Under the pieces are notes generated by a model. The model ran no database searches and was not told where the DNA came from. It worked only from the letters and a program-made list of their open reading frames with translations. A stretch of 64,000 nt of DNA, taken from Latilactobacillus sakei. GTDB taxonomy: Bacteria; Bacillota; Bacilli; Lactobacillales; Lactobacillaceae. Within the stretch, counting starts at the first letter, position 1; every line of letters begins with the position of its first letter. The DNA lies in assembly GCA_002953655.1 (NCBI GenBank), contig CP025839.1, forward strand, positions 868,001-932,000. The letters are read 5' to 3'. Shown one piece after another: positions 37,538 to 55,418 of this stretch. The position numbers were made by a program, and so were the translations under genes.

Positions 37538-37546
37538 GAGGCAGTT

Positions 37547-38029: not shown

Positions 38030-38049
38030 TCATACGAGGAGGATGATTG

Positions 38050-39192: not shown

Positions 39193-39204
39193 GAAGGTAG
39201 GCTT

Positions 39205-40971
39205 ATGACGACTTTTGAAATTGGAACAGATTTTTTATTGGATCAACAGCCATTTAAGATTTATGCCGGCGCAATCCATTATTTCAGAATTGCACCAGGA
39301 CAATGGCGCTATACGTTAAAAAAAGCAAAAGCAGCCGGATTAAATACGATTGAAACCTATGTACCGTGGAATATGCACGAACCGGTTGAGCAGCAATTTG
39401 ATTTTTCAGGGGCGCTCGATTTAAAGCGCTTTATTAAAATAGCCGCTGAAGAAGGCCTCTACGTGATTGTCCGTCCCAGTCCGTATATTTGTGCTGAATG
39501 GGAATTTGGTGGTTTTCCAGCGTGGTTACTAAAATATCCAGATATGATTGTCCGGTCCAACACACCACTGTTTATTAGTAAAGTAGCAGCTTATTATCAC
39601 CGTTTATTTCAAGAATTGGTACCACTGCAAGTGACGCACGGGGGACCAATTTTGATGATGCAAGTTGAAAATGAATATGGGTCTTTTGGTAATGACAAAT
39701 CTTATTTGCGCCAGATCAAGCAATTAATGCTAAATAATGGTGTTGATGTGCCGTTATTTACTTCTGATGGCAGTTGGCTGCAAGCACTAGAAGCTGGCAG
39801 TCTGATTGAAGATGGTATATTAGCAACGGCTAATTTTGGCTCCCATGCTAAAGAAAATTTAACGGTTTTACAACAATTCTTTGAACAACATGATCAGAAA
39901 TGGCCGTTAATGTGTATGGAATTTTGGGATGGCTGGTTTAGTCGCTGGCAGGAACCAGTTGTGCAAAGAGCAAGTGCTGATTTTGAACACGATTTACGAG
40001 AATTAGTTGATTTTGGTGCCAGTTTCAACCTTTACATGTTCCGCGGCGGCAGTAACTGGGGTTTTTGGAACGGGTGCTCATCTAGAAATAATGTTGATTT
40101 ACCGCAAGTAACATCATATGATTACGACGCCATTTTACATGAAGATGGTACTGAAAATGGTAAGTTTGCGGCGTTGCAACATGTGCTGGGTGTTACTGGT
40201 GAGATTGGGGTGGCTGAAGAACGAGCTATCCAACCGCGACAATTGCCGTCAATCGCCGTTCAAAAGACGGTCCGTTTAGTTGATGTGTTAGATGATTTAG
40301 CGCAACCAGTGACTTCATTGGCACCACAATTAATGCCGGCTATTGGCTCGGGTTATGGCTATATTTTCTATCGAACAACAGTCCACGGTCAGGGAAAACC
40401 TGAGACATTACGTTTAGTTGACGCCTCCGATCGCGCTGATATTTATCTCAATCAACAGTTGTTAGACACGCAATACCAAGCCACTTTAGGCACCGATTTA
40501 ACGCCAACTTTGGAAGCAGATAACCAGCTAGAAATATTAGTTGAAAACATGGGGCGGGTTAATTATGGCACGCGTTTATTATCCCCAACCCAGAAAAAGG
40601 GAATCCGGACCGGGGTCGTGATTGATCGTCACCTTCATTTTGGTTGGCAACAGTGGGCACTGGATTTTAAATCAATTACGCATATCGATTGGACCAAGCA
40701 ACTCTCTAATTATGGTCCCACTTTAAATCGATTTACTTTTGATTTAGACCAGACAGTGAATACGTATCTAAACTGTGCTGCTTTTGGGAAGGGAATCGTC
40801 TTGGTGAATGGGCATCATATTGGGCGTTACTGGTCAGTCGGACCAATTGCAACGCTCTATGTTCCTAGCGACTTTTTGAACGTTGGCCATAACGAAATTG
40901 TTGTTTTTGAAACAACGACGACCCCCATCACACAGTTAGAATTTACAGATAAAAGGATGATTAGCGAATGA
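39205..40971 (+). CDS. GH35 beta-galactosidase
   Basis: The 588-residue enzyme has the GH35 barrel with VENEYGSFG (acid/base Glu157) and CMEFWDGW (nucleophile Glu239), then C-terminal jelly-roll domains (about 370-585, VLVNGHHIGRYWSVGP). It is intracellular (no signal). It should cleave beta-galactosyl ends of imported oligosaccharides such as galactan side-chain fragments of pectin. Its stop overlaps the EIIA start by four bases, so it is an integral part of the PTS operon. Confidence 0.92.
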   Translation: MTTFEIGTDFLLDQQPFKIYAGAIHYFRIAPGQWRYTLKKAKAAGLNTIETYVPWNMHEPVEQQFDFSGALDLKRFIKIAAEEGLYVIVRPSPYICAEWEFGGFPAWLLKYPDMIVRSNTPLFISKVAAYYHRLFQELVPLQVTHGGPILMMQVENEYGSFGNDKSYLRQIKQLMLNNGVDVPLFTSDGSWLQALEAGSLIEDGILATANFGSHAKENLTVLQQFFEQHDQKWPLMCMEFWDGWFSRWQEPVVQRASADFEHDLRELVDFGASFNLYMFRGGSNWGFWNGCSSRNNVDLPQVTSYDYDAILHEDGTENGKFAALQHVLGVTGEIGVAEERAIQPRQLPSIAVQKTVRLVDVLDDLAQPVTSLAPQLMPAIGSGYGYIFYRTTVHGQGKPETLRLVDASDRADIYLNQQLLDTQYQATLGTDLTPTLEADNQLEILVENMGRVNYGTRLLSPTQKKGIRTGVVIDRHLHFGWQQWALDFKSITHIDWTKQLSNYGPTLNRFTFDLDQTVNTYLNCAAFGKGIVLVNGHHIGRYWSVGPIATLYVPSDFLNVGHNEIVVFETTTTPITQLEFTDKRMISE

Positions 40972-41375
40972 GACAATTAATATTAGTCAGTCATGGTGAT
41001 TTGGCTAAAAGTTATTTAACGAGCTTAGATATGATTGCCGGTGGGCATGATAATGTAACGGCCATCACCTTCGATGGTGAAATTAGTAAGACGTTATTGG
41101 GGGATCAAATTGAAGTCGCGCTTAACCCAGATGCACAAGAAGTGATTATCGTCGTTGATTTACCAGGCGGGACACCATGTAATGTTGTACTAGAACGCTA
41201 CTTAACGGATGAGCGCATCACAATTTTAGCCAGTTTGAACTTACCAATGATTTTAGAGCTTTATTTAAATCTTGGTCAGGCGGATTATCAAATGACACAA
41301 GCAATTAAAACGGCTATTAGTAATACCTATGATGTGAAGCAACAACTCAGTAACCAAACTGAAGACGATGAATAA
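40968..41375 (+). CDS. PTS mannose-class EIIA component
   Basis: The 135-residue protein shows LILVSHGDLAKS with phosphorylation site His9, and VDLPGGTPCNVVLERYL. It completes the IIC-IID-IIB-IIA set of this operon. It is translationally coupled to the GH35 gene and followed by a bidirectional terminator. Confidence 0.9.
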   Translation: MRQLILVSHGDLAKSYLTSLDMIAGGHDNVTAITFDGEISKTLLGDQIEVALNPDAQEVIIVVDLPGGTPCNVVLERYLTDERITILASLNLPMILELYLNLGQADYQMTQAIKTAISNTYDVKQQLSNQTEDDE

Positions 41376-41380
41376 AACTA

Positions 41381-41427
41381 AAAGAGCCAGCCAAACATCT
41401 AGTAAGATGAAGGGCTGGCTCTTTTTA
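41381..41427. terminator. Bidirectional terminator
   Basis: AAAGAGCCAGCC (41381-41392) pairs with GGCTGGCTCTTT (41413-41424) between convergent genes. Confidence 0.88.
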
Positions 41428-43023
41428 ATGTTTTTCAACATAATTAAAGTATTTAAAATCAGCAAATGAAGCGTGGTGGTCAAGATCTTGCGTACAGATA
41501 CCGACCATTGCGCCGGTAAATGCTAATTTACCATGGGCTTTAATAAAATCATCACTTAATTGATCTGCGGGTAAGACGTCACCGATTGGCTGTAGGTCTT
41601 GTTTGCCAAGCGCATAATAAAATTGTGCTTGGTTACGGTTAACTGTAACTGCTAATCGAATTGATTGATGTTCGGGGATACTAATTCGTTCGGAATGGTA
41701 GGCAAATTGATTAATCGTATCACTTTCAACTTGGATTGTTTTTTCATGACGTTCTTCATCGTAAGAAACTTGCAGATAGTGCCAATTATCCGTGTCATAA
41801 AAGAGCACTAAGCCAGCAAGTTGTTGAAAAGAAGTTGGGTCAAAGGTCATTTCGGTTTCTACACGGAAGTTAAAATGTTGCCATCGGCGGGCAATCAGTG
41901 TTTGTTGGTGTAAGCTGGTAATACTTTGTTCACCATAAAGTCGTAAATAGCCAGGATGATCCGATAGTGAGATACACCGTTGATTAGCAGTGGGTGCTTG
42001 GCGAAGTCCTTTAAAATAATTTGGTAATTGTGTTGTATTAAAATCACAGAATGTACTAAAATCGCTTTTTTGACGACTATTCTTAGCGATTGATGGGACT
42101 GGCACTGCTAAATCTGGGAAGATAGTGCCATTAGTTAGTCGGGGCCACTCATCAATCCAATCGATTTTTTGGAGGGCGGTTTCTCGGCCTAATGGGCAAT
42201 TTCCACGTTCAGTTAACGGGCGAGCGCAAATATGCGTGATATACCATTCATCAGGGGCGACTTCAATAAAAGAAGCATGCCCACTTTTTTGAAGGGGGTT
42301 AGTCGGATCAGGTTTAGTTGTTAGTAACGGGTGGTATGGCGATTGTTCATAAGGGCCCATAATTTGTCGCGACCGACAGACGGTTGCGGCGTGACTATAG
42401 CCGGTGCCACCGGCAGCACATAATAAATAATACCAGCCGTCTTTTTTTAATATCTGAGGCCCCTCGCAAACGCCTAAATCAGTGCCGGTAAAGAAATGAT
42501 GGCGTGTCCCTGTCAATTCTAATGTCTCAGCATTAAATTCTTGAATGACTAGGCCAGCAAAATTGGGCTTTTCGAGGCGATGATCAAATAACATACTCAT
42601 AAGGTAATGTTTGCCATCGTCGTCATGGAAAAAGGCGGGATCGAAACCAGAAGCCGTGACAAAATGCGGCTGACTCCAGGGACCGGTGATTTCTGGCGCA
42701 AACATAACATAATTCAAAGTGTCCTTAAAAGCTGTGCCGGTTTTAACATCGGTGATGAGTAACCAAAATTGACTATCGGCGTAACTAAGGTGAGGGGCCC
42801 AGATACTACCGGAATTATAATTACCCGTTAAATCGATAACGGCGTCGTTTTCTAGCGGGGAACTGACTAATTCCCAATTGATGAGATCAATTGAGTGATA
42901 GATTTCAACACCAGGTAGCCATTCAAACGTTGAAGTTGCCAGATAGTAATCTTGACCGACCTTTACAACGGAAGCATCGGGATTAAAACCGGGTAGGATT
43001 GGATTTTTAAAAGTTTTCATCAT
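41425..43023 (-). CDS. GH43 beta-xylosidase/alpha-arabinofuranosidase-like enzyme
   Basis: The 532-residue protein has the five-bladed GH43 domain (about 1-310: NPILPGFNPDASVV with Asp16, GFDPAFFHDDDGKHYL, VCEGPQIL with the acid Glu) and a C-terminal beta-sandwich (about 325-525) as in GH43 subfamily 11 xylosidases. It is intracellular. It is the last gene of the minus-strand operon but is separated from EIID by a hairpin. Xylose or arabinose side groups of pectin or hemicellulose are likely targets. Confidence 0.88.
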   Translation of the reverse strand: MMKTFKNPILPGFNPDASVVKVGQDYYLATSTFEWLPGVEIYHSIDLINWELVSSPLENDAVIDLTGNYNSGSIWAPHLSYADSQFWLLITDVKTGTAFKDTLNYVMFAPEITGPWSQPHFVTASGFDPAFFHDDDGKHYLMSMLFDHRLEKPNFAGLVIQEFNAETLELTGTRHHFFTGTDLGVCEGPQILKKDGWYYLLCAAGGTGYSHAATVCRSRQIMGPYEQSPYHPLLTTKPDPTNPLQKSGHASFIEVAPDEWYITHICARPLTERGNCPLGRETALQKIDWIDEWPRLTNGTIFPDLAVPVPSIAKNSRQKSDFSTFCDFNTTQLPNYFKGLRQAPTANQRCISLSDHPGYLRLYGEQSITSLHQQTLIARRWQHFNFRVETEMTFDPTSFQQLAGLVLFYDTDNWHYLQVSYDEERHEKTIQVESDTINQFAYHSERISIPEHQSIRLAVTVNRNQAQFYYALGKQDLQPIGDVLPADQLSDDFIKAHGKLAFTGAMVGICTQDLDHHASFADFKYFNYVEKH

Positions 43024-43043
43024 TAATATGCTCCTATCAATGC

Positions 43044-43076
43044 TAAAAAAGAGGTGGCAACTGCCCCTCTTTTTAG
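43044..43076 (-). terminator. Terminator or attenuator between EIID and GH43
   Basis: On the minus strand AAAAAGAGG and CCTCTTTTTT bracket an inner GGCAGTTGCC. It could reduce expression of the GH43 gene relative to the permease. Confidence 0.65.
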
Positions 43077-43090
43077 CGTCTATTCAATAA

Positions 43091-43948
43091 TTAACCAGTG
43101 ATTCCTAAGACAGTTAGGATAATTGCGATTAAAAAGACAGTTAATAATGCGCGTACAGGACGATTATGTTTACGCAGGTAAGCGAAACAAAGCATTGTTA
43201 AGGTTAGTGGTAATAGACCAGGTAAAATGGAATCTAAAATTTGTTGAAGATTAAATTCGGTGCCACCAATCTTTTGTGAGAAGGTAGTTGTAAAGGTTAC
43301 AAATTGTGCTGTCATTGCGCCGGTCATGATTAAACCTAAAACAGTACAACCTTTAGTAATCGCATTGAAAGAACCGCTCTTCATGGCCTTAGAGATGAAG
43401 GCGCCACCTGATTTATAGCCTAATACGCCACCAAACCAACGAATCAGTGCATTAGGGATACTAGCAACGACTAAGAAGAGGATAGGGCCCAGAATATTTC
43501 CTTGTTGACTAAGCCCTAGGGCAACACCCGTTGCGACAACTCGGATAACTGAAAGATAAACCGAATCACCAATACCGGCAAGTGGGCCCATTAAAGCTGT
43601 TTTAAGTGCGCTAATCGAAGTTTCATCGAATGGCGTACCGTTATCAGTCGCTAATTTATTTTCTTCTTCCATTGAAATCGTTAAAGCAGCGATGAAGTTA
43701 TTCATTCCGGTATTAGTATTGTAAAAATCTTGATGGCGGGCCATAGCCGCATAGAACGCGTCAGTACCTTTACCATATATATTCTCTAGGAAGGGTTCCA
43801 TAACCCACGAATAAGTAATGCCCTGCTGTTTGGTATAGCTAGCACAAAACATAAGATAGTTACTGCGCCAAAAGAGCTTCCAGAGTAGCTTACGTTCTTT
43901 TTTATCGAGTTTAGTCGATAATACTTTTGTTTCTGTTGGATTAGTCAT
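43091..43948 (-). CDS. PTS mannose-class permease, EIID component (sigma-54 operon)
   Basis: The start is put at the ATG giving MTNPTETK, with GAGGA eight bases upstream; it overlaps the EIIC gene by eight bases. The 285-residue protein has SNYLMFCASYTKQQGITYSWVMEPF, FYNTNTGMNNFIAALTISME and TALMGPLAGIGDSVYLSVIR. It belongs with the EIIC and EIIB genes immediately upstream; the EIIA is encoded in the opposite operon at 48395. Confidence 0.9.
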   Translation of the reverse strand: MTNPTETKVLSTKLDKKERKLLWKLFWRSNYLMFCASYTKQQGITYSWVMEPFLENIYGKGTDAFYAAMARHQDFYNTNTGMNNFIAALTISMEEENKLATDNGTPFDETSISALKTALMGPLAGIGDSVYLSVIRVVATGVALGLSQQGNILGPILFLVVASIPNALIRWFGGVLGYKSGGAFISKAMKSGSFNAITKGCTVLGLIMTGAMTAQFVTFTTTFSQKIGGTEFNLQQILDSILPGLLPLTLTMLCFAYLRKHNRPVRALLTVFLIAIILTVLGITG

Positions 43949-44807
43949 TGAAAAAATCCTCACTTTCATCGTTAGAATCAACCGTTTCGGTTGCAGTTTG
44001 TTTATTATTGTTGTTGTGGCGTAATTCGGCCATTACAACAAGAGCTGCGATAATAAAACCAATGAAGGCAATTTGAATTAGGGAAAGCATTTTAGTTGGC
44101 GCAGTTGTTAATGCAACTGCACCTTTAGTTAAGCGACCATCTGTTGCTTTGTCGTAGGTGAAGAATGCACCTAATGCGAATCCTAAGAAGTAAAATGGGA
44201 TGAGGCTCTTTTCCCAAAGCATTTTAAGTAGCAAGGCAATCCCGATAGCGGGTAACATAGTTGCAGCAACGGTCATTGAGCTTTGAATCCAAGTTGGAAT
44301 AGCTTCAATTAAAGCTTTAATGGCATTAGTACCAACCATAATTGAAATGAAACCAAGTAGAAAATAAACTAATTCAAAACCCCAAAACTGAAGTGACCAG
44401 AGTCGATTAAAAGCTTTAATATTTTTATCTTTAATATGTTTTTCAAAACGTGGGACAAGGGATGTAATAACCATTTTCATAACTGTATAGATTAAAGTTC
44501 CTAATAATGAAATTGGAACGGCTAAGGCAATTGCGGTTTCGATTTTAGAACCTAAGATCATTGCAAATGCGCCGCCGAAAATGGATCCCAATGTAAAATC
44601 GGATGGCATAACGCCACCGAGATTGACGTTTCCTAGGAAAATTAATTCTAATTGAGCCCCAAGAATAATCCCTTCAGTGGGGTGACCAAGTAAAATCCCT
44701 AGTAGAGCAACGATAAAAATTGGCCGAGAAAGTTGAGAACTAAACCACCAATCTAAAAACTTAGCGAGTGCGACAACAAAACCAACAATGAGTGCGTTCA
44801 TTAACAT
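43941..44807 (-). CDS. PTS mannose-class permease, EIIC component (sigma-54 operon)
   Basis: The 288-residue membrane protein has the EIIC-Man pattern (FWFSSQLSRPIFIVALLGILLGH-like start with PTEGIILGAQLELIFLGNVNLGGVMPSDFTLGSIFGGAFAMILG). AGGAGG lies eight bases before ATG 44807, directly after the EIIB stop. It has an Asn/Thr-rich, acidic C-terminal tail (about 262-288) that the other EIIC lacks. Confidence 0.9.
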   Translation of the reverse strand: MLMNALIVGFVVALAKFLDWWFSSQLSRPIFIVALLGILLGHPTEGIILGAQLELIFLGNVNLGGVMPSDFTLGSIFGGAFAMILGSKIETAIALAVPISLLGTLIYTVMKMVITSLVPRFEKHIKDKNIKAFNRLWSLQFWGFELVYFLLGFISIMVGTNAIKALIEAIPTWIQSSMTVAATMLPAIGIALLLKMLWEKSLIPFYFLGFALGAFFTYDKATDGRLTKGAVALTTAPTKMLSLIQIAFIGFIIAALVVMAELRHNNNNKQTATETVDSNDESEDFFND

Positions 44808-44808
44808 A

Positions 44809-45300
44809 TTAATGGCCTCCTAGTAATTGATTTAATGATTGTTCAGGATCGCTGGGAAGCGGTTGATAAGTAAAATCATAGCCATCAGCGAACATCTTTT
44901 GGAAAATTTGTTCATCTGTTTTTGATAGGTAAACGGTTTCTGTCACTTTGCGCTTATCACTTAGGACACCACCGATTCGGCCATAGTTAGCAATATTTAA
45001 ACGTGGTTTCTGAGTGAGATGTGGGACTAGTCCAGCAACATATTTTGGATCGTTGGTAACAACTAATATTTTGAGTGCTTCTGAACGTGGGTCATTTAAG
45101 ATCTTAATGGCTTTATCAAGTGGTAAGATAGCTGCTTTTACGCCAGCAGGAGCTGCCATTTTAAGCGCGCTAATCTGAATTTCATTGGTAGCAATTTTGT
45201 CACTGATAACGACAATGCGACTAATTCCTAATTCCTTTGACCATTTAACCGCCACCTGTCCATGGATAAGTCGATCGTCAATTCTAATCATACTAATCAT
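44809..45300 (-). CDS. PTS mannose-class EIIB component (sigma-54 operon)
   Basis: The start is the ATG giving MISMIRIDDRLIHGQ, with AGGAGG seven bases before it; the upstream frame to 45363 is untranslated leader. The 163-residue protein has phospho-acceptor His13. It is the first gene of the operon transcribed from the -24/-12 promoter at 45372-45389. Confidence 0.9.
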   Translation of the reverse strand: MISMIRIDDRLIHGQVAVKWSKELGISRIVVISDKIATNEIQISALKMAAPAGVKAAILPLDKAIKILNDPRSEALKILVVTNDPKYVAGLVPHLTQKPRLNIANYGRIGGVLSDKRKVTETVYLSKTDEQIFQKMFADGYDFTYQPLPSDPEQSLNQLLGGH

Positions 45301-45371
45301 TGTAAAACCTCCTAATATAAAATAAATAATGTGAATGATGCCATGCTTGTTGTAAGCCTGCAAATTACTAT

Positions 45372-45389
45372 AAGCAAGTAACGTGCCAA
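45372..45389 (-). promoter_or_regulatory. Sigma-54 promoter for the EIIB-IIC-IID operon
   Basis: On the minus strand it reads TTGGCACGTTACTTGCTT, an excellent match to the -24/-12 consensus TGGCAC-N5-TTGCW. It lies about 70 bases before the EIIB start. Confidence 0.88.
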
Positions 45390-45390
45390 G

Positions 45391-45400
45391 TTGTGTCGAC
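45391..45400. promoter_or_regulatory. GTCGACACAA element abutting the -24 box
   Basis: Minus strand GTCGACACAA ends one base before the -24 element. The same element (TTCGACACAA) lies in the same place at the other sigma-54 promoter (48327-48336). Confidence 0.5.
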
Positions 45401-45459
45401 TGGATGAATCAGCTTTTTATCACAGGGATTGCAATTTAAACGCGGCGTGGTATAGTAAA

Positions 45460-45495
45460 TTCGACAGAAATAAAAACGGTTACAATTGTGTCGAA
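45460..45495. promoter_or_regulatory. Inverted TTCGACA elements before the levR-like gene
   Basis: TTCGACAGAA (45460-45469) and TTGTGTCGAA (45486-45495) face each other 16-26 bases before the activator start, with a cre-like AACGGTTACA between them. This suggests an operator for the same factor that touches the two sigma-54 promoters. Confidence 0.5.
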
Positions 45496-45511
45496 GAAAA
45501 GGAATGAGTCG

Positions 45512-48253
45512 ATGAGCCTAGATAAAGTAAAAAATGAAGTCGTTAAAGAAACGTTAGCATTACGGACGATTGCAGATATTAAAAATATAACAACTGAAAA
45601 AATTGCGACGCAAGTCCAGTTGAGCCGCAATACGGTTAGTCAGTATTTGAATGAATTATTAAAATCTGGTGCGGTGGTTCAGGTTAAATCGCGACCGGCT
45701 AATTTTTTTGATCGAGAAACTTTTACGGAATTATTTTTTAAACCGCAAACGCTAATATACAGTACCTTAGCCGCTTTAACGGCTGAACAGAGTGCGACAC
45801 AAAGCGTCTTTCAATCTTTTATTGGTAGTCAAGAGAGTATGCGCATCGGGATTGAACATATTACGACAGCCATTAATTATCCACCAAACGGGCTACCGAT
45901 GATTTTTTCTGGTAGTACCGGTGTGGGGAAGAGTTATCTGGCCAAACTAACCTATGATTATTGTGTTGAAAAAGGAATTTTGAGTGAACAAGCTCCTTTT
46001 ATGACGCTCAATTGTGCGCAGTATTATCATAATCCGGAGTTACTTTCGAGCAATCTTTTTGGTTATGCCAAAGGGAGTTTTACCGGGGCAACAACTGATT
46101 TTAAAGGGTTACTAGAATCGGCTGATGGAGGCGTTTTGTTTTTAGATGAATGTCACCGCTTAGATCCTGAAAGCCAAGAAAAACTTTTTTCGTTTATGGA
46201 TACGGGTACTTTTCAACGGATGGGGGAAAATAATGTGACTCGGCGGGCAAACGTGCGCCTGATATTTGCGACCACTGAGGATTTAAACGAAACATTCCTA
46301 AAAACCTTTATGCGGCGTATTCCAGTGTCGGTTAAGGTGCCTGATTTAAATAATCGCTCTAAAACGGAATTGAAATTACACATCTTCAAAGCCTTTATTC
46401 AAGAAAGTGAACGGTTAGGGCGGCCTATCACGGTGAGTGCCTGGGTGATCAATCGGCTTTATAATTTAAAATATAAGAGTAACGTTGGTGAGTTAAAGAC
46501 TAATATTCGACTATTATGCGCGCGCGTTTTCAGTCAGGAGAAGACTGCGGAGACGATTGTTATCAATTCAGAAAGTATTGGCAATACTTTTTTAACAAAT
46601 CTAATGGCTTCTAAAGAGCAAGAAGTTGTAGTCAAAGAAGCCGTTAACTTCAGTCCGACAAGTCAACTGACAGATTTTGAAGATCAATTGCAGGATGAAA
46701 ATTCATTGCTATTAAATGGCTTACAAAAAATATTAGGCTTAGTTGAGCAATATCAACAGCGCACATTATCGTTAGAGAATGTCAAACGACAACTGGCTCG
46801 TGAAGCGGCTGCCCTAATCGATCGTATTGTGCATGGCGATCAGCAATTTCAAGATGAATCTTTAAAATATATGACCGCCGTGATTCAAGGGTTATTTGAT
46901 TATCTTGAGTCATCTTTCTTCGTTAAAATTAAGGGAAATGCGATTGTTGCGATTGCTAACTATATTTACCGGAAGAATGATTTTGAAATTAAAATAACGC
47001 CTAAGGAAACGATCTTGTTAGAACGACTGTTAGGTTTAATCTCAGAGAATGCGGGGATTGAGACCCAGTTGTTGAAATCATTCTTAGACTTAGTTAAGAC
47101 AAAACTGGACTTTAAATTAGATTTGTTTAGCCAAGTTTTACTGATGGGTTATTTAATTAGCTTGGAAATTGATTATCAACGCTCAGGCCAATCAGCGATT
47201 ATCTTAGCGCATGGTTTTTCAACCGCTAGTAGTATCGCGGATGTTGCCAACCAATTTTTGGATTATAAGGTTTTTGATGCGTTTGATATGCCGTTATCAA
47301 TTTCAGTCAATCAAGTGCGGGAATTTATGGACCAGTATTTGAAGAAATACGATTGTTCAAAGGGACTGGTTATTCTAGTGGATATGGGGTCTTTAATGGT
47401 CTTGCCGGAATCGCTAGAAGAAGTTGTCGACGGACCACTTTTAGTTATTAGTAATGTTTCAACTCAAGAAGCGCTGTATGTGGGGGAATTAATTCGTAGT
47501 GGGACCGCAATTGATGAAATTGGGCGCAAGGTTCAAGAAAAACTGCGGCCAACGTATCGACTGAGTTACCCAATTGTTAAAAAAGCCCCGATGATTATTA
47601 CGACTTGTCATACTGGCGTTGGTTCAGCAAAACAAATTCAAAAATTCTTAGAGAATAGTATGCCTCAGAATCTCGATTATCGCATTGAGGCAGTTGATTA
47701 TGCCTATTTAACGCAATACGCAGATCAAAGTCCGTACTTTAATCAATATGATGTCGTTTCGATTGTCGGAACAAGTGATCCTCAAATTCCGGGAATGCCG
47801 TTTATTTCATTAGAAAAATTGGTATCGACAGGAGACAAGGAAATTGTTCACCAAATTTTTCCAACGATCGAAGATTCGACGGTGTTAGATCAAATTAATG
47901 ATAAGTTAATTCAAAACATGTCAATTGAGCGTCTATTATCGGCAGTCACGATTTTAGATGTCAAAAAAGTGATTGAATCAGTGAGCCAATTAATTGGCCG
48001 CCTTGAAGAAGGCTCACAAATTAAATTATCTAACAATCAGAAGGCTATTTTATACGTGCACATTAGCGCACTAATTGAACGTTTAATTCGGAATGAAAAG
48101 CCCCTGGAATATCATCCTGATAATGAAGCAGAACGTGTTCAGGGTCTCCAGCAGATTGCCAGAGCACTGGGGACGATTGAGTCGAGCTATGGCATTAATG
48201 TTTCAGATGGTGAACGTAATTATTTATACGATATTATTTTTGAAGGTGAATAA
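45512..48253 (+). CDS. LevR/ManR-type sigma-54 activator with PRD and PTS-like domains
   Basis: From ATG 45512 (AAGGA upstream; the GTG at 45488 lies inside a regulatory element) it has 913 residues. An N-terminal HTH (about 28-60) is followed by an AAA+ sigma-54 domain with Walker A GSTGVGKS (134-141), GSFTGA (188-193) and VLFLDE (208-213). Two PRD-like regions (about 420-530 and 800-910) frame an EIIA-Man-like domain (IILAHGFSTASS, His about 567) and an EIIB-like segment (TCHTGVGSAKQ). Such proteins activate mannose-class PTS operons from -24/-12 promoters in response to PTS phosphorylation. Confidence 0.93.
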   Translation: MSLDKVKNEVVKETLALRTIADIKNITTEKIATQVQLSRNTVSQYLNELLKSGAVVQVKSRPANFFDRETFTELFFKPQTLIYSTLAALTAEQSATQSVFQSFIGSQESMRIGIEHITTAINYPPNGLPMIFSGSTGVGKSYLAKLTYDYCVEKGILSEQAPFMTLNCAQYYHNPELLSSNLFGYAKGSFTGATTDFKGLLESADGGVLFLDECHRLDPESQEKLFSFMDTGTFQRMGENNVTRRANVRLIFATTEDLNETFLKTFMRRIPVSVKVPDLNNRSKTELKLHIFKAFIQESERLGRPITVSAWVINRLYNLKYKSNVGELKTNIRLLCARVFSQEKTAETIVINSESIGNTFLTNLMASKEQEVVVKEAVNFSPTSQLTDFEDQLQDENSLLLNGLQKILGLVEQYQQRTLSLENVKRQLAREAAALIDRIVHGDQQFQDESLKYMTAVIQGLFDYLESSFFVKIKGNAIVAIANYIYRKNDFEIKITPKETILLERLLGLISENAGIETQLLKSFLDLVKTKLDFKLDLFSQVLLMGYLISLEIDYQRSGQSAIILAHGFSTASSIADVANQFLDYKVFDAFDMPLSISVNQVREFMDQYLKKYDCSKGLVILVDMGSLMVLPESLEEVVDGPLLVISNVSTQEALYVGELIRSGTAIDEIGRKVQEKLRPTYRLSYPIVKKAPMIITTCHTGVGSAKQIQKFLENSMPQNLDYRIEAVDYAYLTQYADQSPYFNQYDVVSIVGTSDPQIPGMPFISLEKLVSTGDKEIVHQIFPTIEDSTVLDQINDKLIQNMSIERLLSAVTILDVKKVIESVSQLIGRLEEGSQIKLSNNQKAILYVHISALIERLIRNEKPLEYHPDNEAERVQGLQQIARALGTIESSYGINVSDGERNYLYDIIFEGE

Positions 48254-48261
48254 GAAATACA

Positions 48262-48300
48262 AAAGCTGGGATAAATAGCATTTTATCGGCAGCTTTTTTT
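48262..48300 (+). terminator. Terminator after the levR-like gene
   Basis: AAAGCTG pairs with CAGCTTT and GATAAA with TTTATC inside it; TTTTTTT follows. It isolates the activator gene from the sigma-54 operon that starts just downstream. Confidence 0.85.
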
Positions 48301-48326
48301 GATGCTATAACATTATGGGGCGTTAC

Positions 48327-48336
48327 TTCGACACAA
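48327..48336. promoter_or_regulatory. TTCGACACAA element abutting the -24 box
   Basis: The element ends three bases before the -24 box at 48340 and matches those at 45391 and 45486. Confidence 0.5.
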
Positions 48337-48339
48337 AAG

Positions 48340-48355
48340 TGGCATGAAACTTGCT
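48340..48355 (+). promoter_or_regulatory. Sigma-54 promoter for the EIIA-GH88-HAD-rpoN-GH36-GH28 operon
   Basis: TGGCATGAAACTTGCT matches the -24/-12 consensus with correct spacing. The bases after it (TTATAG) are the same as after the opposite promoter. It lies 40 bases before the EIIA start. Confidence 0.87.
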
Positions 48356-48394
48356 TATAGAAAAGTGTAAGTGAAAGATGAAGGGGTAATAGCG

Positions 48395-48799
48395 ATGAAC
48401 AGAATTATTTTGATATCACACAATCGGTTAGCAGAAGGGATGAAACGTGCGGTAGAAATGATCGCAGGCCCGCAAGCTAATTTAGAATGTTTGGGTCTGA
48501 TGCCAGGAGAACAACCAGATGCATTAATTGACAGTTTTAAACAAACCATCCAACCAGAACAAAATATTATTATTTTGGCCGATATTGTTGGAGGTAGTAT
48601 GTGTAACGCAGCAATGGCTTTGTTACCACTCCCTAATGTCAGGATAATTGGTGGGATGAATCTAGCATTGGTGTTAGAAGTCGTTTTAGCTACACCACAA
48701 ACTGAAGCGGAAATCCAACACGTTATTGAAAGTGCTTCGCAAAATATGCACGAGATTCAATTGGTAGCAAATCAAGAACGAGAAGAAGACTTTTTCTAA
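48395..48799 (+). CDS. PTS mannose-class EIIA component (sigma-54 operon)
   Basis: ATG 48395 lies eight bases after GAAGGGG; the product has 134 residues with IILISHNRLAEG (His9) and ADIVGGSMCNAAMALL. It is the missing IIA for the divergent EIIB-IIC-IID operon. Upstream frame to 48371 overlaps leader sequence. A GH88 gene follows after 21 bases. Confidence 0.9.
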   Translation: MNRIILISHNRLAEGMKRAVEMIAGPQANLECLGLMPGEQPDALIDSFKQTIQPEQNIIILADIVGGSMCNAAMALLPLPNVRIIGGMNLALVLEVVLATPQTEAEIQHVIESASQNMHEIQLVANQEREEDFF

Positions 48800-48820
48800 A
48801 TTAAAGGAGTGTTGAAATTA

Positions 48821-49936
48821 ATGGATAAGCAACAATGGGCAACACAAATACTCAGTAAAATTGAATTAAAGGTTGATCAAGAACTTCAGCGTTTAGGAGA
48901 CCAAATTCCCTATATGGCCGTTGATGGGCATTACACTGATATGGGCGCTAAAGACATTACTTGGTGGACAAATGGCTTTTGGTCAGGCATTTTATGGCAG
49001 TTATACCACGCTACAGGTAAGCCAATTTACAAAGAAACGGCTCAAAAAAATGAAGAACGCTTAGATCAAGCTTTTTTAAACTTCAAGGGCTTACATCACG
49101 ATGTTGGCTTTATGTGGTTGCATACTGCAGTCGCAAACTATCGCCTGACACAAAATCCAAAATCATTACAACGGGGCTTACATGCCGCTGAGTTGTTAGC
49201 GGGTCGCTATAATCCACGCGGGCAATTTATTCGTTCGTGGAATCGCGATCGAGCAGGATGGGTCATTATCGATAGTATGTTAAATATTCCGTTATTGTAC
49301 TGGGCGCAAGAAGCCCTAGACGATCCGCGGTTTGGTTTTATTGCGGAAGATCATGCGGATAAAGTAATGACTAATATTGTGCGAGCAGACGGTTCGGTCG
49401 CACACATTGGTGTCTTTGACCCACAGGATGGTACCTTGCTAGAAACCTTAGGTGGTCAAGGTTACGGTGTTGGCTCTTCTTGGTCACGCGGACAAGCATG
49501 GGCCATTTATGGTTTTGCGCTTAGTTATCGGCATACTCACAAGGCGGTATATCTTGATACAGCTAAAAAAGTCGCGAATTACTTTATTGCTAATATTCAA
49601 AAAACAGGTTACATTCCGGTATCAGATTTTAGAGCGCCACAAACACCAGTGAAAGTTGATACTTCTGCGGCAACGTGTGCTGCTTGTGGGTTCTTAGAAA
49701 TTGCGCGGCATGTACCTGAAAATGAACGACCACTTTATGAAGAGGCGGCCGTTAATATCTTGAAGGCGATTGTTGAAAAGCATGTTGATTGGCGTACTGA
49801 GGCAGATGGCATTGTTTTGGATGCGACACCAGCTTATCATGAGGAAGAAACTGTCCAAACCCCAATCATCTATTCGGATTATTATTTTATTGAAGCTATT
49901 TTACGTTTGCTGAATCAGGACTTTCTAATCTGGTAA
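48821..49936 (+). CDS. GH88 unsaturated glucuronyl hydrolase, second copy
   Basis: The 371-residue protein has WWTNGFWSGILWQLYHATG, HHDVGFMWLHTAVANYR (Asp94) and WVIIDSMLNIPLLYWAQ (Asp151), the two catalytic aspartates of UGL enzymes, then SSWSRGQAWAIYGFALSYRHT. ATG 48821 is chosen; an in-frame TTG at 48809 sits too close to AAAGGAG. It is homologous to 38050-39192 but clearly distinct, so the two PTSs each carry their own hydrolase. It acts in the cytoplasm on unsaturated uronide ends. Confidence 0.9.
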   Translation: MDKQQWATQILSKIELKVDQELQRLGDQIPYMAVDGHYTDMGAKDITWWTNGFWSGILWQLYHATGKPIYKETAQKNEERLDQAFLNFKGLHHDVGFMWLHTAVANYRLTQNPKSLQRGLHAAELLAGRYNPRGQFIRSWNRDRAGWVIIDSMLNIPLLYWAQEALDDPRFGFIAEDHADKVMTNIVRADGSVAHIGVFDPQDGTLLETLGGQGYGVGSSWSRGQAWAIYGFALSYRHTHKAVYLDTAKKVANYFIANIQKTGYIPVSDFRAPQTPVKVDTSAATCAACGFLEIARHVPENERPLYEEAAVNILKAIVEKHVDWRTEADGIVLDATPAYHEEETVQTPIIYSDYYFIEAILRLLNQDFLIW

Positions 49937-49951
49937 AAAGGAGCTAAGTAT

Positions 49952-50776
49952 TTGATAAAAATGGTAGGAACGGATTTAGATGGCACATTATTAAATCGTC
50001 AGAATCAGATTTCAACTATTAATCGCCAAACAATTCAGGGATTGGCACAACAGCAAGTTGTATTTGCAATTACTTCGGGGCGAAAGGCGGACTCTATCCA
50101 AGCCGTTTTTAAGGATTTGAACGTTAGTGGCTATAAAGTCTGCTTAAATGGTAGTTATGTATTAGGACCAGCTGATGAAGTCCTCTATGAGGCGCCTTTA
50201 TCAATTACAACGATTCGCCAAATATTGGGGATTGGCTTACAAAATCAAGTGCAGGTCTTTTTTAATAGCGCCGCTGTTTCATTTTATTACCAACCAACTA
50301 CTTCTCAAATTGCAATTCCTGAATTTGTTCATGGTAATCCCAGTATCGTACAGATTCAATCAGAGCAAGCATTGCTAGCAACGATTGAAAAACAAGGTCT
50401 TAATATCTATAAAGCGGCTTTTACAACCACCGATACTGAAGCGTTAACCACATGTTTAAAGACCCTAGAGCAACAGCAAATTGTCAATCAAGTTTGGTCA
50501 GATCGTAATTACTTGGAGATGACCGCTAAGGGGGTTACCAAGTTAACAGGCATCAAGAAAATTGCCGAGTACCTGGCGCTTGATTTAACCGAGATTGCTT
50601 GTTTTGGTGATTATGATAATGATATTGAAATGTTAGCTGGGGTTGGTTATGGGGTGGCAATGAGTAATGCGGTTCAAAAAGTTAAACAAGCCAGTTATTT
50701 GATAATTGATAATCAGCATGCAGAGGGTGTCGGTAATGGTATTAAACAGTTAATGGGTGAGCAAAATGGCGCTTAA
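49952..50776 (+). CDS. HAD superfamily Cof-type phosphatase
   Basis: The 274-residue protein starts at TTG 49952, eight bases after AAAAGGAG. HAD motifs are GTDLDGTLLN (nucleophile Asp), TSGRK, KGVTKLTGIKK and CFGDYDNDIEML. The Cof family dephosphorylates sugar phosphates and similar compounds. Inside a PTS oligosaccharide operon it could remove the phosphate added during uptake so that the glycosidases can act. That role is inferred. It overlaps rpoN by 11 bases. Confidence 0.87.
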   Translation: MIKMVGTDLDGTLLNRQNQISTINRQTIQGLAQQQVVFAITSGRKADSIQAVFKDLNVSGYKVCLNGSYVLGPADEVLYEAPLSITTIRQILGIGLQNQVQVFFNSAAVSFYYQPTTSQIAIPEFVHGNPSIVQIQSEQALLATIEKQGLNIYKAAFTTTDTEALTTCLKTLEQQQIVNQVWSDRNYLEMTAKGVTKLTGIKKIAEYLALDLTEIACFGDYDNDIEMLAGVGYGVAMSNAVQKVKQASYLIIDNQHAEGVGNGIKQLMGEQNGA

Positions 50777-52058
50777 ACAAGGACAACAATTAGCAGAAAA
50801 GCAATCACAACAACTTAAATTGTCGCAGAGTATGCAACAGTCCATCATGATGTTGCAGCTGGATACGATCGATTTACTAAGTTACCTCAAAGAGAGTAGT
50901 TTGGAAAATCCATTATTTGATGTGCAAGAAAAATATGGTCAATACGTTGCGAGTCAAAATACGGCAACGTATCAGATTAAAGATGAACAACGCTCTTTAT
51001 TTGAATACTTGCTAGAGCAAATTCAACTAACGATGCGGCAAACACCGCTTAGGGATTTAGTAATTTATCTAGTCGAACAACTAGATCCCAATGGCTATTT
51101 ACAATTAAGTGATGCGGAGATATTAACTGAGCTAGCAATTGACCCCATTATGCTCCAAGATGCTAAAACATTATTGCAGCGGTTAGATCCACCAGGTGTG
51201 GGGGCTAGTTCTTTACAAGAGTGTTTACTGTTACAAGCACAGCATGCTGAACAATTCGTACCAGTAGGAACAGTGACGATTTTATCGAGCCAATTTGAAG
51301 CATTAGTTGCACATGATTGGCAGGCTATTCAAACCCAGTGTGGCTTAACCGCAAAACAAGTGATAGATTGCCAGCAATATATCCAGCAGCTAACGGCCGC
51401 ACCAGGGCAAATTTATACCAGTCAACGGTCGCAAGTAATTGTGCCAGACTTGATTTTGAAGATTGATGATAAGCACTTGACGTTAAGTTTTTCAAAATAT
51501 GGGAATCCAGAATTGATATTCGCAAATGAAACCTATCAAACCTTAAAACAATCAACAGATCAAGAGGTGCGGCGCTATATCAATGAAAAAGAATCCGATT
51601 ATCAAAAATTGGTCTACAATTTGGAACGCCGCAAAAAGACGATTAGCTTAATTGGTCGCTGTATTATCGCCAAGCAACAGGCATTTTTCTTACAGCAGAC
51701 AACTTCGTTAGCGCCGTTATTACTTCGGGATATAGCAAACGAACTTCAATTAAGTGAATCGACTGTTAGTCGTGCAGTCAATGGTAAATATCTACAAACG
51801 CCGACGGGAACGTTTGAATTAAAAACATTTTTTGCACGGCGGAGTAAAGTTAAGCAAGGTGAAACGATGCGTTCGGTCGATCAAGTGCAGAAAATTATTC
51901 AACAAATGATTGCTAATGAGTTGCCACAGCAGCCGTTGAGTGATCAAAAAATCAGTGAAGCACTTAAGACGCAAGGGCTGCAGCTTGCTAGACGAACTGT
52001 TGCTAAATATCGGGAAGAATTAGCAATTCCCCCAGCAACCAAGAGGAGGAAAAAATGA
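50766..52058 (+). CDS. rpoN: RNA polymerase sigma-54 factor
   Basis: From ATG 50766 it has 430 residues. Region I is Gln-rich (QLAEKQSQQLKLSQSMQQSIMMLQLDTIDLLSYL), followed by the core-binding domain (LVEQLDPNGYLQLSD; QRLDPPGVGASSLQECLLLQ), a helix-turn-helix (RDIANELQLSESTVSRAVNGKYLQTP) and the RpoN box ARRTVAKYREE (about 408-418) that contacts -24. It lies inside the operon read from the -24/-12 promoter at 48340, overlapping the HAD gene and the GH36 gene, so sigma-54 would drive its own synthesis. Confidence 0.95.
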   Translation: MALKQGQQLAEKQSQQLKLSQSMQQSIMMLQLDTIDLLSYLKESSLENPLFDVQEKYGQYVASQNTATYQIKDEQRSLFEYLLEQIQLTMRQTPLRDLVIYLVEQLDPNGYLQLSDAEILTELAIDPIMLQDAKTLLQRLDPPGVGASSLQECLLLQAQHAEQFVPVGTVTILSSQFEALVAHDWQAIQTQCGLTAKQVIDCQQYIQQLTAAPGQIYTSQRSQVIVPDLILKIDDKHLTLSFSKYGNPELIFANETYQTLKQSTDQEVRRYINEKESDYQKLVYNLERRKKTISLIGRCIIAKQQAFFLQQTTSLAPLLLRDIANELQLSESTVSRAVNGKYLQTPTGTFELKTFFARRSKVKQGETMRSVDQVQKIIQQMIANELPQQPLSDQKISEALKTQGLQLARRTVAKYREELAIPPATKRRKK

Positions 52059-54151
52059 TAAAAGAGAGTCGTCAGTATAAAAAGTATACATTTGATTCAA
52101 TCGTTGCAGCATATTCAATTGGTGAAAAGAGTGGTGCAGTAGGACTAGTCATTTATCCCCAAAGCCGTGCTCATGAAGTAAAAATTGCAAAAACGCCAGT
52201 AGACTCTCTAGTCCAGGTGGCCCTAGCTGGAGATACTGCCAGCAAAGGTTTTACGAACGGTTGGAGTATGCATAACAGTGAAACGACACAAACTTTAACC
52301 TACTTAGATCAATCCGTTGAAGAAAATCAACAACAAATTAGCATTACAACCCAAATGCAAGATGCAAAAGGGAATTTAGTGACGCACTTGTTAACGTGGC
52401 ATAAAGGCTATCCAGTTTTAGAAATGCAGTCACGATTTGAAAACCGAACGGCTACAGCCGTCTGGTTGGAAAATTTATCAAGTTTTTCGATCAGTCAACT
52501 ATCGCCGCTTTCAGTGCCCAATCAGCCTAGAACGTTATCTTTAACACGCTTCAGAAGTAAATGGGCGATGGAAGGTCGGCTTGAGCGCCACTATATTGAA
52601 GATTACCAATTGGAACCGAGTTGGAAACCCTCTGGTGGCAGTGTTGAAAAGATTGGTCAAGTGGGTTCGATGCCGGTTAGAGGCTTCTTTCCATATTTGG
52701 GAGTTGCTGATGAAGCGCATCAAGTTTATTGGGCCTTTCAACTTGCGATACCAACGTCTTGGCAAATTGAAGCCTATCGGAAGCAAGATGATTTAATCAT
52801 CACCGGTGGTTTGGCAGATTATAATTACGGTCACTGGCGTAAATCAATTTTACCAGGTACCAGTTTTACCACCCCTGTCGCTAGGGTAACAGTCGGGACG
52901 GGATCGCAAGAAGCAGTTAATCAGCAATTAGCAACTTTAACGCAGGCGAGTTTGGTGCAACATCCCAATTCCGATGCGACTGAATTACCGATTGTGTTTA
53001 ATGAATTCTGTACATCTTGGGGCACACCGCGCCAAGCCGATTTAGAACAAGAATTGGCGATTATTAAGCAACACCAGGTTAAATATTTTGTGATTGATGC
53101 AGGCTGGTATGCTGATCAAGCGGGTTCTTGGGAAAATAAAATGGGGGACTGGACGGTTAGTGAAAATCTATTTCCAAATGGCCTAGCAGCACTTTCTAAA
53201 AAAGTACGCCAAGCTGGGTTAATTCCCGGTATTTGGTTTGAATTTGAGGTCGTTGGTAAGGATAGTACCGCTTTTAATTGGGTGGATCATTTAGTTAAAA
53301 AAGATGGCCTACCAGTGACTGCTGGGACACGTCGCTTTTGGGATATGACGGATCCGTGGGTTCAAGACTATCTCAGACAACACGTTATCCAGTTATTGAA
53401 AGATAATGATATTGGCTATTTGAAAATCGATTATAACGAAAATATCGGTGTTGGTTGTGATGATGAATCCTTAGGTGAGGGGTTACGCAAACAAATACTA
53501 GCAACACAAGCCTTTATTCGGAAAATTAGAACGATGGTGCCAGGAATTGTGATCGAAAACTGCTCTTCTGGCGGTCACCGCTTAGAACCATCTATGATGG
53601 CGCTAACTGATATGTCATCTTATTCCGATGCGCATGAAACGTGGTCGATTCCGATGATTGCCGCTACCTTGCAACAGCATATGTTGCCAGTTCAGGCGCA
53701 AATCTGGGCCGTGTTACATCAGGCTGATTCAATTCAACAGATTCAATATGTGATGAGTGCGACATTCCTCGGGCGTATGTGTCTTTCAGGGGATGTTACG
53801 CATCTATCACAAGCACAATGGCAGAGTGTCGATGACGGGATTGCATTTTATCAACGATTGAAAACAATCCTTAAAAAAGGACAGTCGACATTTTATGGGC
53901 GTGCGCCACAAACATATGGGGAGCCGGATGGTAGCCAACTCGTAATTAGAAAAACTACAGATGAACAATTATTGGTGTTTCATAATTTTAAGACTGACTG
54001 GCAAACATTCAAAATAGAAATTGATTGGCAAAAATGGCAGATTGATAGCCAATATGGTGAAATGACTCAAGTTCAAAAAACAGCAACCGGACTCGTTTTT
54101 ACTGGTCAAAAGACTTATTGTGCGAGTGCCATTTATTTAGTGAGACGCTAA
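52055..54151 (+). CDS. GH36 alpha-galactosidase
   Basis: The 698-residue protein has the N-terminal beta-sandwich (about 1-290), the GH36 barrel with YLKIDYNENIG (nucleophile Asp459) and ENCSSGGHRLEPSMM with SSYSDAHE (acid/base Asp525), and a short C-terminal domain. It is slightly shorter than typical GH36 AgaA enzymes (about 730). It starts four bases before the rpoN stop. It would remove alpha-galactosyl residues in the cytoplasm from sugars brought in by the sigma-54-controlled PTS. Confidence 0.93.
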   Translation: MIKESRQYKKYTFDSIVAAYSIGEKSGAVGLVIYPQSRAHEVKIAKTPVDSLVQVALAGDTASKGFTNGWSMHNSETTQTLTYLDQSVEENQQQISITTQMQDAKGNLVTHLLTWHKGYPVLEMQSRFENRTATAVWLENLSSFSISQLSPLSVPNQPRTLSLTRFRSKWAMEGRLERHYIEDYQLEPSWKPSGGSVEKIGQVGSMPVRGFFPYLGVADEAHQVYWAFQLAIPTSWQIEAYRKQDDLIITGGLADYNYGHWRKSILPGTSFTTPVARVTVGTGSQEAVNQQLATLTQASLVQHPNSDATELPIVFNEFCTSWGTPRQADLEQELAIIKQHQVKYFVIDAGWYADQAGSWENKMGDWTVSENLFPNGLAALSKKVRQAGLIPGIWFEFEVVGKDSTAFNWVDHLVKKDGLPVTAGTRRFWDMTDPWVQDYLRQHVIQLLKDNDIGYLKIDYNENIGVGCDDESLGEGLRKQILATQAFIRKIRTMVPGIVIENCSSGGHRLEPSMMALTDMSSYSDAHETWSIPMIAATLQQHMLPVQAQIWAVLHQADSIQQIQYVMSATFLGRMCLSGDVTHLSQAQWQSVDDGIAFYQRLKTILKKGQSTFYGRAPQTYGEPDGSQLVIRKTTDEQLLVFHNFKTDWQTFKIEIDWQKWQIDSQYGEMTQVQKTATGLVFTGQKTYCASAIYLVRR

Positions 54152-54165
54152 AGTGAGGGTGAGAA

Positions 54166-55368
54166 ATGCGTAATCAAGAATTTAACATTATCGATTTCGG
54201 CGCGCAAGCAGATACGATCCAACTCCAGACCGTTGCAATTCAAGCCTGTATTGAGGCGTGCCGCGAAGCAGGTGGTGGCCAAATAACGGTTCCCACCGGC
54301 CGCTTTTTAATTGGTAGTCTACGATTGTATTCCGATATGACGCTCTATTTGCAGGCGGGTGCACAGCTGATAGGAAGTCCCAATTATCTAGACTACGAGG
54401 ATTTTCAAGTACCGACGACCATAATGTACGCTAATGATGCCTATTATCAGACTAAATGGCACCTACCACCCTATTATTTTTATGGCTTAATCACTGCTTT
54501 TCAGGCTGAAAATATCAGTATTATTGGTGAACCAGGTGCGGTAATCGATGGCTGTGATACTTACGATGCTAACGGAGAAGAACAATTTCGAGGGCCAATG
54601 GGAATTGTCATGTCACAAGTTAAACATTTGCAACTAATAGGTTATACGATGCAAAATAGTGCTAATTGGTCACATTGTTTGGATGGTTGTGAGCAGGTTT
54701 TAATTGAGCGAGTGACAGTTCAAGCAGGCCATGATGGCTTTAATTTGCATCATTCTCGAGCGATTAAAGTCCAAAATTGTCATTTGGAAACGGGTGATGA
54801 TTGCTTTGCAGGCTATGATATTCGACAATTACAGGTGACTAATTGCCAATTAAATACGGCTTGTAATGTTTTTCGAGTAGGGGGACACCAATTAGTAGTT
54901 GATAATTGCCAAATTAAGGGACCAGGGCGTTATCCGCATTTATCGCAAGATACTTATAATACACATGCGTTATTTAAGTATTATTCGATTGATGTCGATC
55001 AGATGACGCCTGTTCAACAAGATATAACGTTTCAAGACTGTTTAATTGATAATATTGGTCAGTTAATCGTCTACGACTTTGGTAATCGAAATTTTATGCA
55101 GACAAATCGCCCATTGGACCAGATTAATTTTAAAAGAACGACAATCAATCACTTAACCCAATCTTCAACGATTAACGGGCAGCATTTGACGGTCTCGTTT
55201 GAAAAAACATTAATTAACTTTAATAGTAAGCAACCATTTTTAACGTTTAAAACGCCAATTACACTTAAGTTGAACGAAGTAACTTTTAAACGGCCAACAA
55301 CAATAATGTTAGCAAACGGCCAACAACTAACGCTTGATTCTCAAATCAATTTAATTGTTACTAAATAA
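54166..55368 (+). CDS. Divergent GH28-like beta-helix protein
   Basis: The 400-residue protein opens with NIIDFGAQADTIQLQTVAIQACIEAC, typical of GH28 and related beta-helix enzymes, and keeps GHDGFN (Asp190) and TGDDC (Asp211/Asp212). The later GHG and RIK motifs are not recognisable; the equivalent region reads TACNVFRVGGHQ. It has a long aromatic insertion (DAYYQTKWHLPPYYFYGL, about 91-108). It is probably a cytosolic enzyme for an unusual galacturonide or other glycan linkage. It is the last gene of the sigma-54 operon. Confidence 0.75.
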   Translation: MRNQEFNIIDFGAQADTIQLQTVAIQACIEACREAGGGQITVPTGRFLIGSLRLYSDMTLYLQAGAQLIGSPNYLDYEDFQVPTTIMYANDAYYQTKWHLPPYYFYGLITAFQAENISIIGEPGAVIDGCDTYDANGEEQFRGPMGIVMSQVKHLQLIGYTMQNSANWSHCLDGCEQVLIERVTVQAGHDGFNLHHSRAIKVQNCHLETGDDCFAGYDIRQLQVTNCQLNTACNVFRVGGHQLVVDNCQIKGPGRYPHLSQDTYNTHALFKYYSIDVDQMTPVQQDITFQDCLIDNIGQLIVYDFGNRNFMQTNRPLDQINFKRTTINHLTQSSTINGQHLTVSFEKTLINFNSKQPFLTFKTPITLKLNEVTFKRPTTIMLANGQQLTLDSQINLIVTK

Positions 55369-55371
55369 AAT

Positions 55372-55418
55372 AGGGAGGCTAGGCAAAAGTAATTCTTGTC
55401 TGGCCCCCCTTGTTTTTA
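55372..55418 (+). terminator. Terminator of the sigma-54 operon
   Basis: AGGGAGGCTAGGCAAAAG and CTTGTCTGGCCCCCCT form an imperfect GC-rich stem followed by TTTTTA. Confidence 0.75.

Follow-up and report, generated by a model that had tools for sequence, protein, structure and literature searches.

The 64,000-nucleotide (nt) stretch of the Latilactobacillus sakei genome analysed here (the window), which spans positions 868001-932000 of a complete 2.10-Mb chromosome, carries rpoN, the gene for the sigma factor sigma-54, within an operon of sugar-uptake and glycosidase genes that is itself preceded by a -24/-12 promoter, i.e. one of the sigma-54 type. Judged from gene order, genome-wide searches and comparisons with relatives, this locus probably represents an accessory, horizontally shared and locus-dedicated sigma-54 module with what we infer to be positive feedback. 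Rather than a general factor, the rpoN gene seems to be an optional and self-amplifying component of a single sugar pathway: the genome's whole predicted sigma-54 system, comprising the sigma factor, one activator and two promoters, lies together with the enzymes that it controls within 14 kb, and a close sister species (~96% identical flanking DNA) lives without any sigma-54 system.

The rpoN operon and its promoters

Behind the promoter TGGCATGAAACTTGCT the genes run in the order EIIA-GH88-HAD-rpoN-GH36-GH28, with EIIA belonging to a mannose-class phosphotransferase system (PTS). With gene starts picked by ribosome-binding sites, the intergenic gaps measure 21, 15 and 14 nt, and rpoN overlaps both its neighbors, by 11 nt with the HAD gene (the ATG at 50766 precedes the HAD stop) and by 4 nt with the GH36 gene. 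The identity of its product as sigma-54 is indicated by matches to PF00309, PF04963, PF04552 and TIGR02395 (391 bits against a cut-off of 277). The initial annotation, made from the sequence alone, had placed a TGGCAT-N5-TTGCT promoter before this very run of tightly packed genes, and both the gene identities and the packing (gaps at most 21 nt, overlaps on either side of rpoN) bear it out. Its further claim, that neither a terminator nor a clear sigma-70 promoter lies between promoter and rpoN, also stands: terminator-like sites in the operon region occur at the level of shuffled sequences (6 versus 6.9 expected), and the sole plus-strand sigma-70-like site scoring at least 9/12 in this interval (9/12, at 48620) falls within EIIA. 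Directly before rpoN, where it had allowed for a strong constitutive promoter as a counter-argument, the consensus scan found no sigma-70 promoter and no site of at least 9/12 on the plus strand. By gene order, overlaps and the lack of an intervening terminator, rpoN is co-directional and contiguous behind a sigma-54 promoter, an arrangement of the type known from Rhodobacter capsulatus (see below).

A second -24/-12 promoter, TGGCACGTTACTTGCT, precedes a divergent EIIB-EIIC-EIID-GH43 operon, such that the PTS is split across two divergent sigma-54 operons with the gene for a LevR-like activator between them. This divergent site (45388-45373, minus strand), the terminator after levR and that at the end of the rpoN operon are additions to the initial annotation. 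Both promoters conform to GG-N10-GC and TGGCAY-N5-TTGCW upstream of a target gene, the GG-GC spacing in TGGCATGAAACTTGCT being the canonical 10 nt, and they share the element TCGACACAA-nn(n)-TGGCAYG-nnACTTGCTTATAG. Taken by itself, the bare motif at 48340 is within chance because perfect TGGCA-N6-TTGCW matches number 20 genome-wide and the reversed control pattern likewise yields 20. Its position is beyond chance: 16 of the 20 matches lie in open reading frames and four in non-coding DNA, and only the two flanking levR sit 25-31 nt before a gene. When the consensus is extended on the model of related loci, to TGGCAYR-N4-TTGCTTATA, no site in the 2.1-Mb genome other than these two matches it perfectly; among the three sites with one mismatch two break the essential GC and the third lies within an open reading frame, while up to two mismatches give 10 sites for the true pattern versus 3 for the reversed control. 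The genome search for other -24/-12 promoters thus adds to the site at 48340 only that at 45388 as fitting the full consensus. The remaining bare matches were rejected as regulon members in view of their location in open reading frames and of the equal control count, as was a non-coding match 105 nt before a groES-like gene, which lacks the extended consensus.

The complete genome has a single rpoN, the one in this operon, no second copy having been found in a search that the initial annotation had proposed as a check. It likewise has one strong sigma-54 activator gene, the levR of this locus, whose product combines PF00158 (132.7 bits), PF03610 and PF00874 and bears GSFTGA as its GAFTGA-like loop. 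Weaker PF00158 matches (~35 bits versus 136) were rejected as a second activator and would, by their size, be Clp-type ATPases. Given one rpoN, one strong activator and only two full-consensus sites, the predicted sigma-54 regulon consists of the two promoters at this one locus alone.

Distribution within and beyond the Lactobacillaceae

Among six genomes of the genus, two possess rpoN, and an activator occurs in these two alone. The sister species (G005) has neither, and its topoisomerase gene adjoining the locus is 99% identical to that of the window. Comparison by blastn gives 93.5% identity up to position 41426 and 96.4% from 55416, with 44 bp unmatched between them, so that the piece absent from the sister species (41427-55415) coincides exactly with the two sigma-54 operons plus levR and their terminators. 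Bringing both a sigma factor and an activator along, the operon could enter genomes without sigma-54. Another congener (G001; L042, L043) has two divergent rpoN genes yet one activator in the genome; one copy lies beside LevR-EIIABCD and the other beside a transposase-like gene, with neither PTS nor activator genes close by.

Across 398 Lactobacillaceae genomes, with rpoN called at E < 1e-30, 133 possess rpoN and 130 a strong activator; both occur in 127, rpoN only in 6, the activator only in 3 and neither in 262 (Fisher p 3e-92, uncorrected for shared ancestry). Five of the six genomes with rpoN and no strong activator (G104, G129, G244, G259 and G332) belong to one genus, g4, in which a sigma-54 without an evident activator is possibly decaying. 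A decaying sigma-54 system is also seen in L060 (G256), where rpoN contains several in-frame stops and the genome has a weakly matching activator.

The surroundings of 60 Lactobacillaceae rpoN genes besides that of the window were inspected, a sample made up of all the lowest-scoring copies and part of the rest, which hence gives no frequencies. In these loci rpoN lies either beside the gap cluster or mostly beside LevR and mannose-class EII genes. The gap-cluster form, found between clpP-like and cggR-gap-pgk-tpi-eno-like genes (assigned by gene size and order only), makes up a compact, slowly evolving group in the rpoN tree. In 16 loci (the window, L048, L049, L052-L054, L056-L059 and L068-L073) rpoN is co-directional behind a non-coding -24/-12 site, either with a gap of 42 nt or less to the gene before it or with 49-61 nt between it and the promoter itself; in L049, wider gaps of 69 and 138 nt occur earlier in the gene run. 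On the rpoN tree, a quick tree with several long branches, this state requires 6 changes, or 8 if four looser loci are excluded. An EIIA-(HAD)-rpoN-GH36/GH43 layout like that of the window recurs in L070 and L071, from one other genus, and in L073, from another (RpoN identity 50-53%), while in L068 and L072 rpoN directly follows the -24/-12 site.

Similar blocks are found on plasmids. The conjugative Lacticaseibacillus paracasei plasmid pLPCN-2 carries one tight run of LevR, a sigma-54 promoter, EIIABCD, GH, GH172, rpoN and ROK, with rpoN inside the operon, and the mobilizable L. paracasei plasmid p1CACC566 has LevR divergent from rpoN, the promoter and EIIABCD, with rpoN upstream of the promoter. 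Like the window, both unite LevR, a mannose-class PTS, a -24/-12 promoter and rpoN in one block; unlike it, they encode a different PTS and different enzymes, and their RpoN is ~44% identical to that of the window. A plasmid search recovered no plasmid DNA similar to the window's own module. The initial annotation had considered a glycosidase operon an unusual setting for a general sigma factor, a view that does not hold, as rpoN turns up repeatedly in mannose-PTS or glycosidase operons, both within the family and on plasmids, and the rpoN of the window is the genome's only one and not a displaced general factor.

In the 18 intact loci from the order outside the Lactobacillaceae, rpoN is mostly located at the gap cluster or else next to a PTS without lying behind the PTS promoter. 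An exception is L235 (G439, family f9, a 1.5-Mb genome), in which rpoN forms the tail of an operon preceded by LevR and a -24/-12 site; by its gene sizes this operon looks like one for a cellobiose-type PTS. A 592-kb record of Aerococcus tenax labelled as a plasmid (L218, CP127381.1), with divergent rpoN and EIIABCD-LevR, also contains rpmH, rnpA and yidC, so that it is probably no plasmid but part of a chromosome.

Sigma-54 usually counts as a core regulator that is fixed in the chromosome and works with many activators. More tentatively, the above distribution might mean that in the Lactobacillaceae it is no longer an inherited general factor but has become mobile and specific to single pathways. 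In this view, rpoN and a single LevR would come and go with individual sugar operons, and rpoN would repeatedly have moved behind its own promoter, to create an all-or-none sugar switch with memory in cells otherwise without sigma-54.

A potential self-amplifying switch and its alternatives

The mechanism that we propose starts with LevR made from its own sigma-70 promoter. Transport of the substrate would change the phosphorylation of LevR by the PTS and thereby switch it on, as expected from known LevR biology (Francke et al., PMC3162934). LevR and basal RpoN would then open both promoters, to produce EIIBCD and GH43 from the divergent operon and EIIA-GH88-HAD-rpoN-GH36-GH28 from the rpoN operon, and the new RpoN would raise its own transcription, resulting in a positive-feedback switch with much sigma-54 only during the use of this oligosaccharide. 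The presence of GH88-type, GH28-like, GH36-like and GH43 enzymes with a Cof phosphatase leads us to guess at a plant, perhaps pectin-derived, oligosaccharide as the substrate. The initial annotation had proposed, on condition that rpoN has no other promoter, a self-amplifying switch dedicated to one oligosaccharide, and such a dedicated switch is the natural reading of a single rpoN, a single strong activator, no sigma-70 consensus directly before rpoN and a one-locus predicted regulon; to be added is that an rpoN depending purely on itself could not start, such that some basal source of RpoN must exist, which might be a weak internal promoter or leakage past the levR terminator.

Several points weigh against an acquired module with feedback. 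Beyond this inability of rpoN to start from zero, weak promoters escape consensus scans; rpoN is divergent from or upstream of the promoter in L044, L047, L050 and L216, so feedback is not universal in PTS-linked modules; and the module could have been deleted in the sister species instead of inserted in the present genome. The EIIA of the neighboring PTS operon (35956-41375) survives alone beside the topoisomerase gene in that species (L210:4840-5247), which suggests past deletions at this site.

The need for a basal source would equally agree with sufficient, constant RpoN supplied by a sigma-70 promoter that escaped detection within GH88 or HAD, in which case the operon position would give little or no feedback. 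Two TGnTAnnnT elements occur inside GH88, and a comparable weak promoter is described for R. capsulatus rpoN (PMC6925177). Nevertheless, we regard this as distinctly unlikely, given that no plus-strand site of the required quality directly precedes rpoN and that transcription from the sigma-54 promoter would add RpoN anyway, with rpoN overlapping its neighbors and no terminator between. Somewhat less doubtful, and compatible with the feedback module, is that rpoN stays in the operon merely through co-inheritance, as modules bringing their own sigma factor survive transfer, with feedback as a side effect. The presence or absence of the module as a unit between sister species, the plasmid copies of rpoN-LevR-PTS blocks and the loci whose rpoN lies close to the sigma-54 promoter without being placed behind it (L043, L044, L047, L050 and L216) are in line with such a scenario. 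However, co-inheritance explains the linkage and not the position inside the transcript, whereas rpoN has come to lie downstream of the promoter repeatedly (the 6-8 tree changes), including directly behind it in L068 and L072. An accidental -24/-12 match at 48340, with the operon driven by an unseen sigma-70 promoter, would fit the equal counts of bare motifs and reversed controls, but is extremely improbable considering that both operon starts flanking levR carry the site at 25-31 nt, that only these two fit the extended consensus in the genome and that related loci bear -24/-12 sites at the same place.

Related systems and further features of the locus

In Bacillus subtilis and Lactiplantibacillus plantarum, rpoN lies elsewhere in the genome, away from the lev or pts operon; in the window it is inside the operon. 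Otherwise, the mannose-class PTS operons that LevR/ManR controls in Firmicutes (B. subtilis lev, L. plantarum pts and L. casei esu, cited in PMC3162934) resemble the window in having EIIABCD genes and a LevR-type activator next to a -24/-12 promoter. Francke et al. report sigma-54 in L. casei only in strain BL23 (PMC3162934), which agrees with an accessory system.

The nifU2-rpoN superoperon of R. capsulatus (Cullen et al. 1994, as described in PMC6925177) is an established autoactivated rpoN operon with an additional weak constitutive promoter. As in the window, rpoN belongs to an operon whose upstream promoter requires RpoN and its activator; in contrast, that system is an alphaproteobacterial nitrogen-fixation regulon with many targets, the activator NifA and a known weak constitutive promoter, whereas the window has a Lactobacillaceae PTS/glycosidase locus, a LevR-type activator, a predicted two-promoter regulon and a sigma-54 system that is accessory as a whole. 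The autoactivated rpoN operon is thus already known, and what appears to be new here is its LevR-PTS sugar-operon version. Similarly, the island-borne rpoN2 on the symbiosis island of Mesorhizobium loti R7A (PMC3538637) and the function-specific rpoN paralogues of R. sphaeroides (PMC12316311) resemble the window in having rpoN copies that sit on a mobile island or serve a single function, but those genomes have more than one rpoN and that of the window has this one only. In Bacilli and several further classes, rpoN itself was among the genes predicted by a survey from 2025 to be transcribed with sigma-54 (PMC12316311). A literature search that reached few subscription papers found none on rpoN inside the LevR-PTS operon that it serves and none on sigma-54 as a presence/absence module in lactobacilli, which is weak evidence of novelty. 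The locus offers a minimal natural system for testing sigma-factor autoactivation free of pleiotropy, and it exemplifies a transferable operon that supplies the polymerase specificity it needs.

Table 1. Genes and signals of the sigma-54 module, in window coordinates
Feature	Positions	Strand	Basis
Whole module (both sigma-54 operons, levR, terminators)	41427..55415	.	blastn against sister species G005, where the segment is missing
GH43 glycosidase, last gene of divergent operon	41425..43023	-	PF04616
PTS EIID	43091..43981	-	NCBIfam
PTS EIIC	43941..44807	-	NCBIfam
PTS EIIB of divergent operon	44809..45300	-	NCBIfam; start probably ATG 45300 after AGGAGG
Divergent sigma-54 promoter TGGCACGTTACTTGCT	45373..45388	-	exact match 25 nt before EIIB open reading frame
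Copy of TTCGACACAA-type element, candidate LevR site	45391..45400	-	sequence comparison
Probable sigma-70 promoter of levR, TTGCAA-16-TATAGT with TG extension	45429..45456	+	consensus scan
Inverted repeat TTCGACAGAA-N16-TTGTGTCGAA, candidate distal LevR site for divergent promoter	45460..45495	.	sequence comparison
levR-like sigma-54 activator gene	45488..48253	+	HTH, AAA+ with GSFTGA, EIIA-like, PRD (Pfam, genome search); start probably ATG 45512
Intrinsic terminator after levR, separating it from rpoN operon	48261..48297	+	fold -13.8 kcal/mol, z -2.7, then T run
TTCGACACAA, candidate promoter-adjacent LevR site	48327..48336	+	TCG[AC]CA pattern in LevR subfamily
Sigma-54 promoter TGGCATGAAACTTGCT of rpoN operon	48340..48355	+	exact match, position, family consensus
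PTS EIIA, mannose class	48395..48799	+	PF03610, NCBIfam; likely start ATG 48395
GH88-type unsaturated uronyl hydrolase	48821..49936	+	PF07470; solved unsaturated glucuronyl hydrolases E 1e-61; likely start ATG 48821
Cof-type HAD phosphatase	49952..50776	+	PF08282, TIGR00099; likely start TTG 49952
rpoN (sigma-54)	50766..52058	+	AID, core-binding and DNA-binding domains; RpoN box ARRTVAKYRE; likely start ATG 50766
GH36-like glycosidase	52055..54151	+	PF02065; PDB alpha-galactosidases E 4e-30; likely start ATG 52055
GH28-like glycosidase	54166..55368	+	PF00295; rhamnogalacturonidase-like match below cut-off; likely start ATG 54166
Terminator of rpoN operon	~55367..55417	+	fold -22.7 kcal/mol, z -4.2

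The LevR of the window is 64% identical to that of L081 and 60% to that of L068, the next best being at ~33%. The pattern TCG[AC]CA stands 11-12 nt before TGGCA in 6 of the 7 promoters of the window, L068 and L081 loci versus 0 of 34 promoters elsewhere, counts that constitute a lead and not a test, the pattern having been spotted post hoc; distal copies lie 78-142 nt upstream at some of these promoters. Confined to one LevR subfamily, it is a candidate LevR recognition site that lies unusually near the promoter. A second mannose-class PTS/GH88/GH35 operon, the one whose EIIA is retained in the sister species, adjoins the module and has no perfect -24/-12 site.

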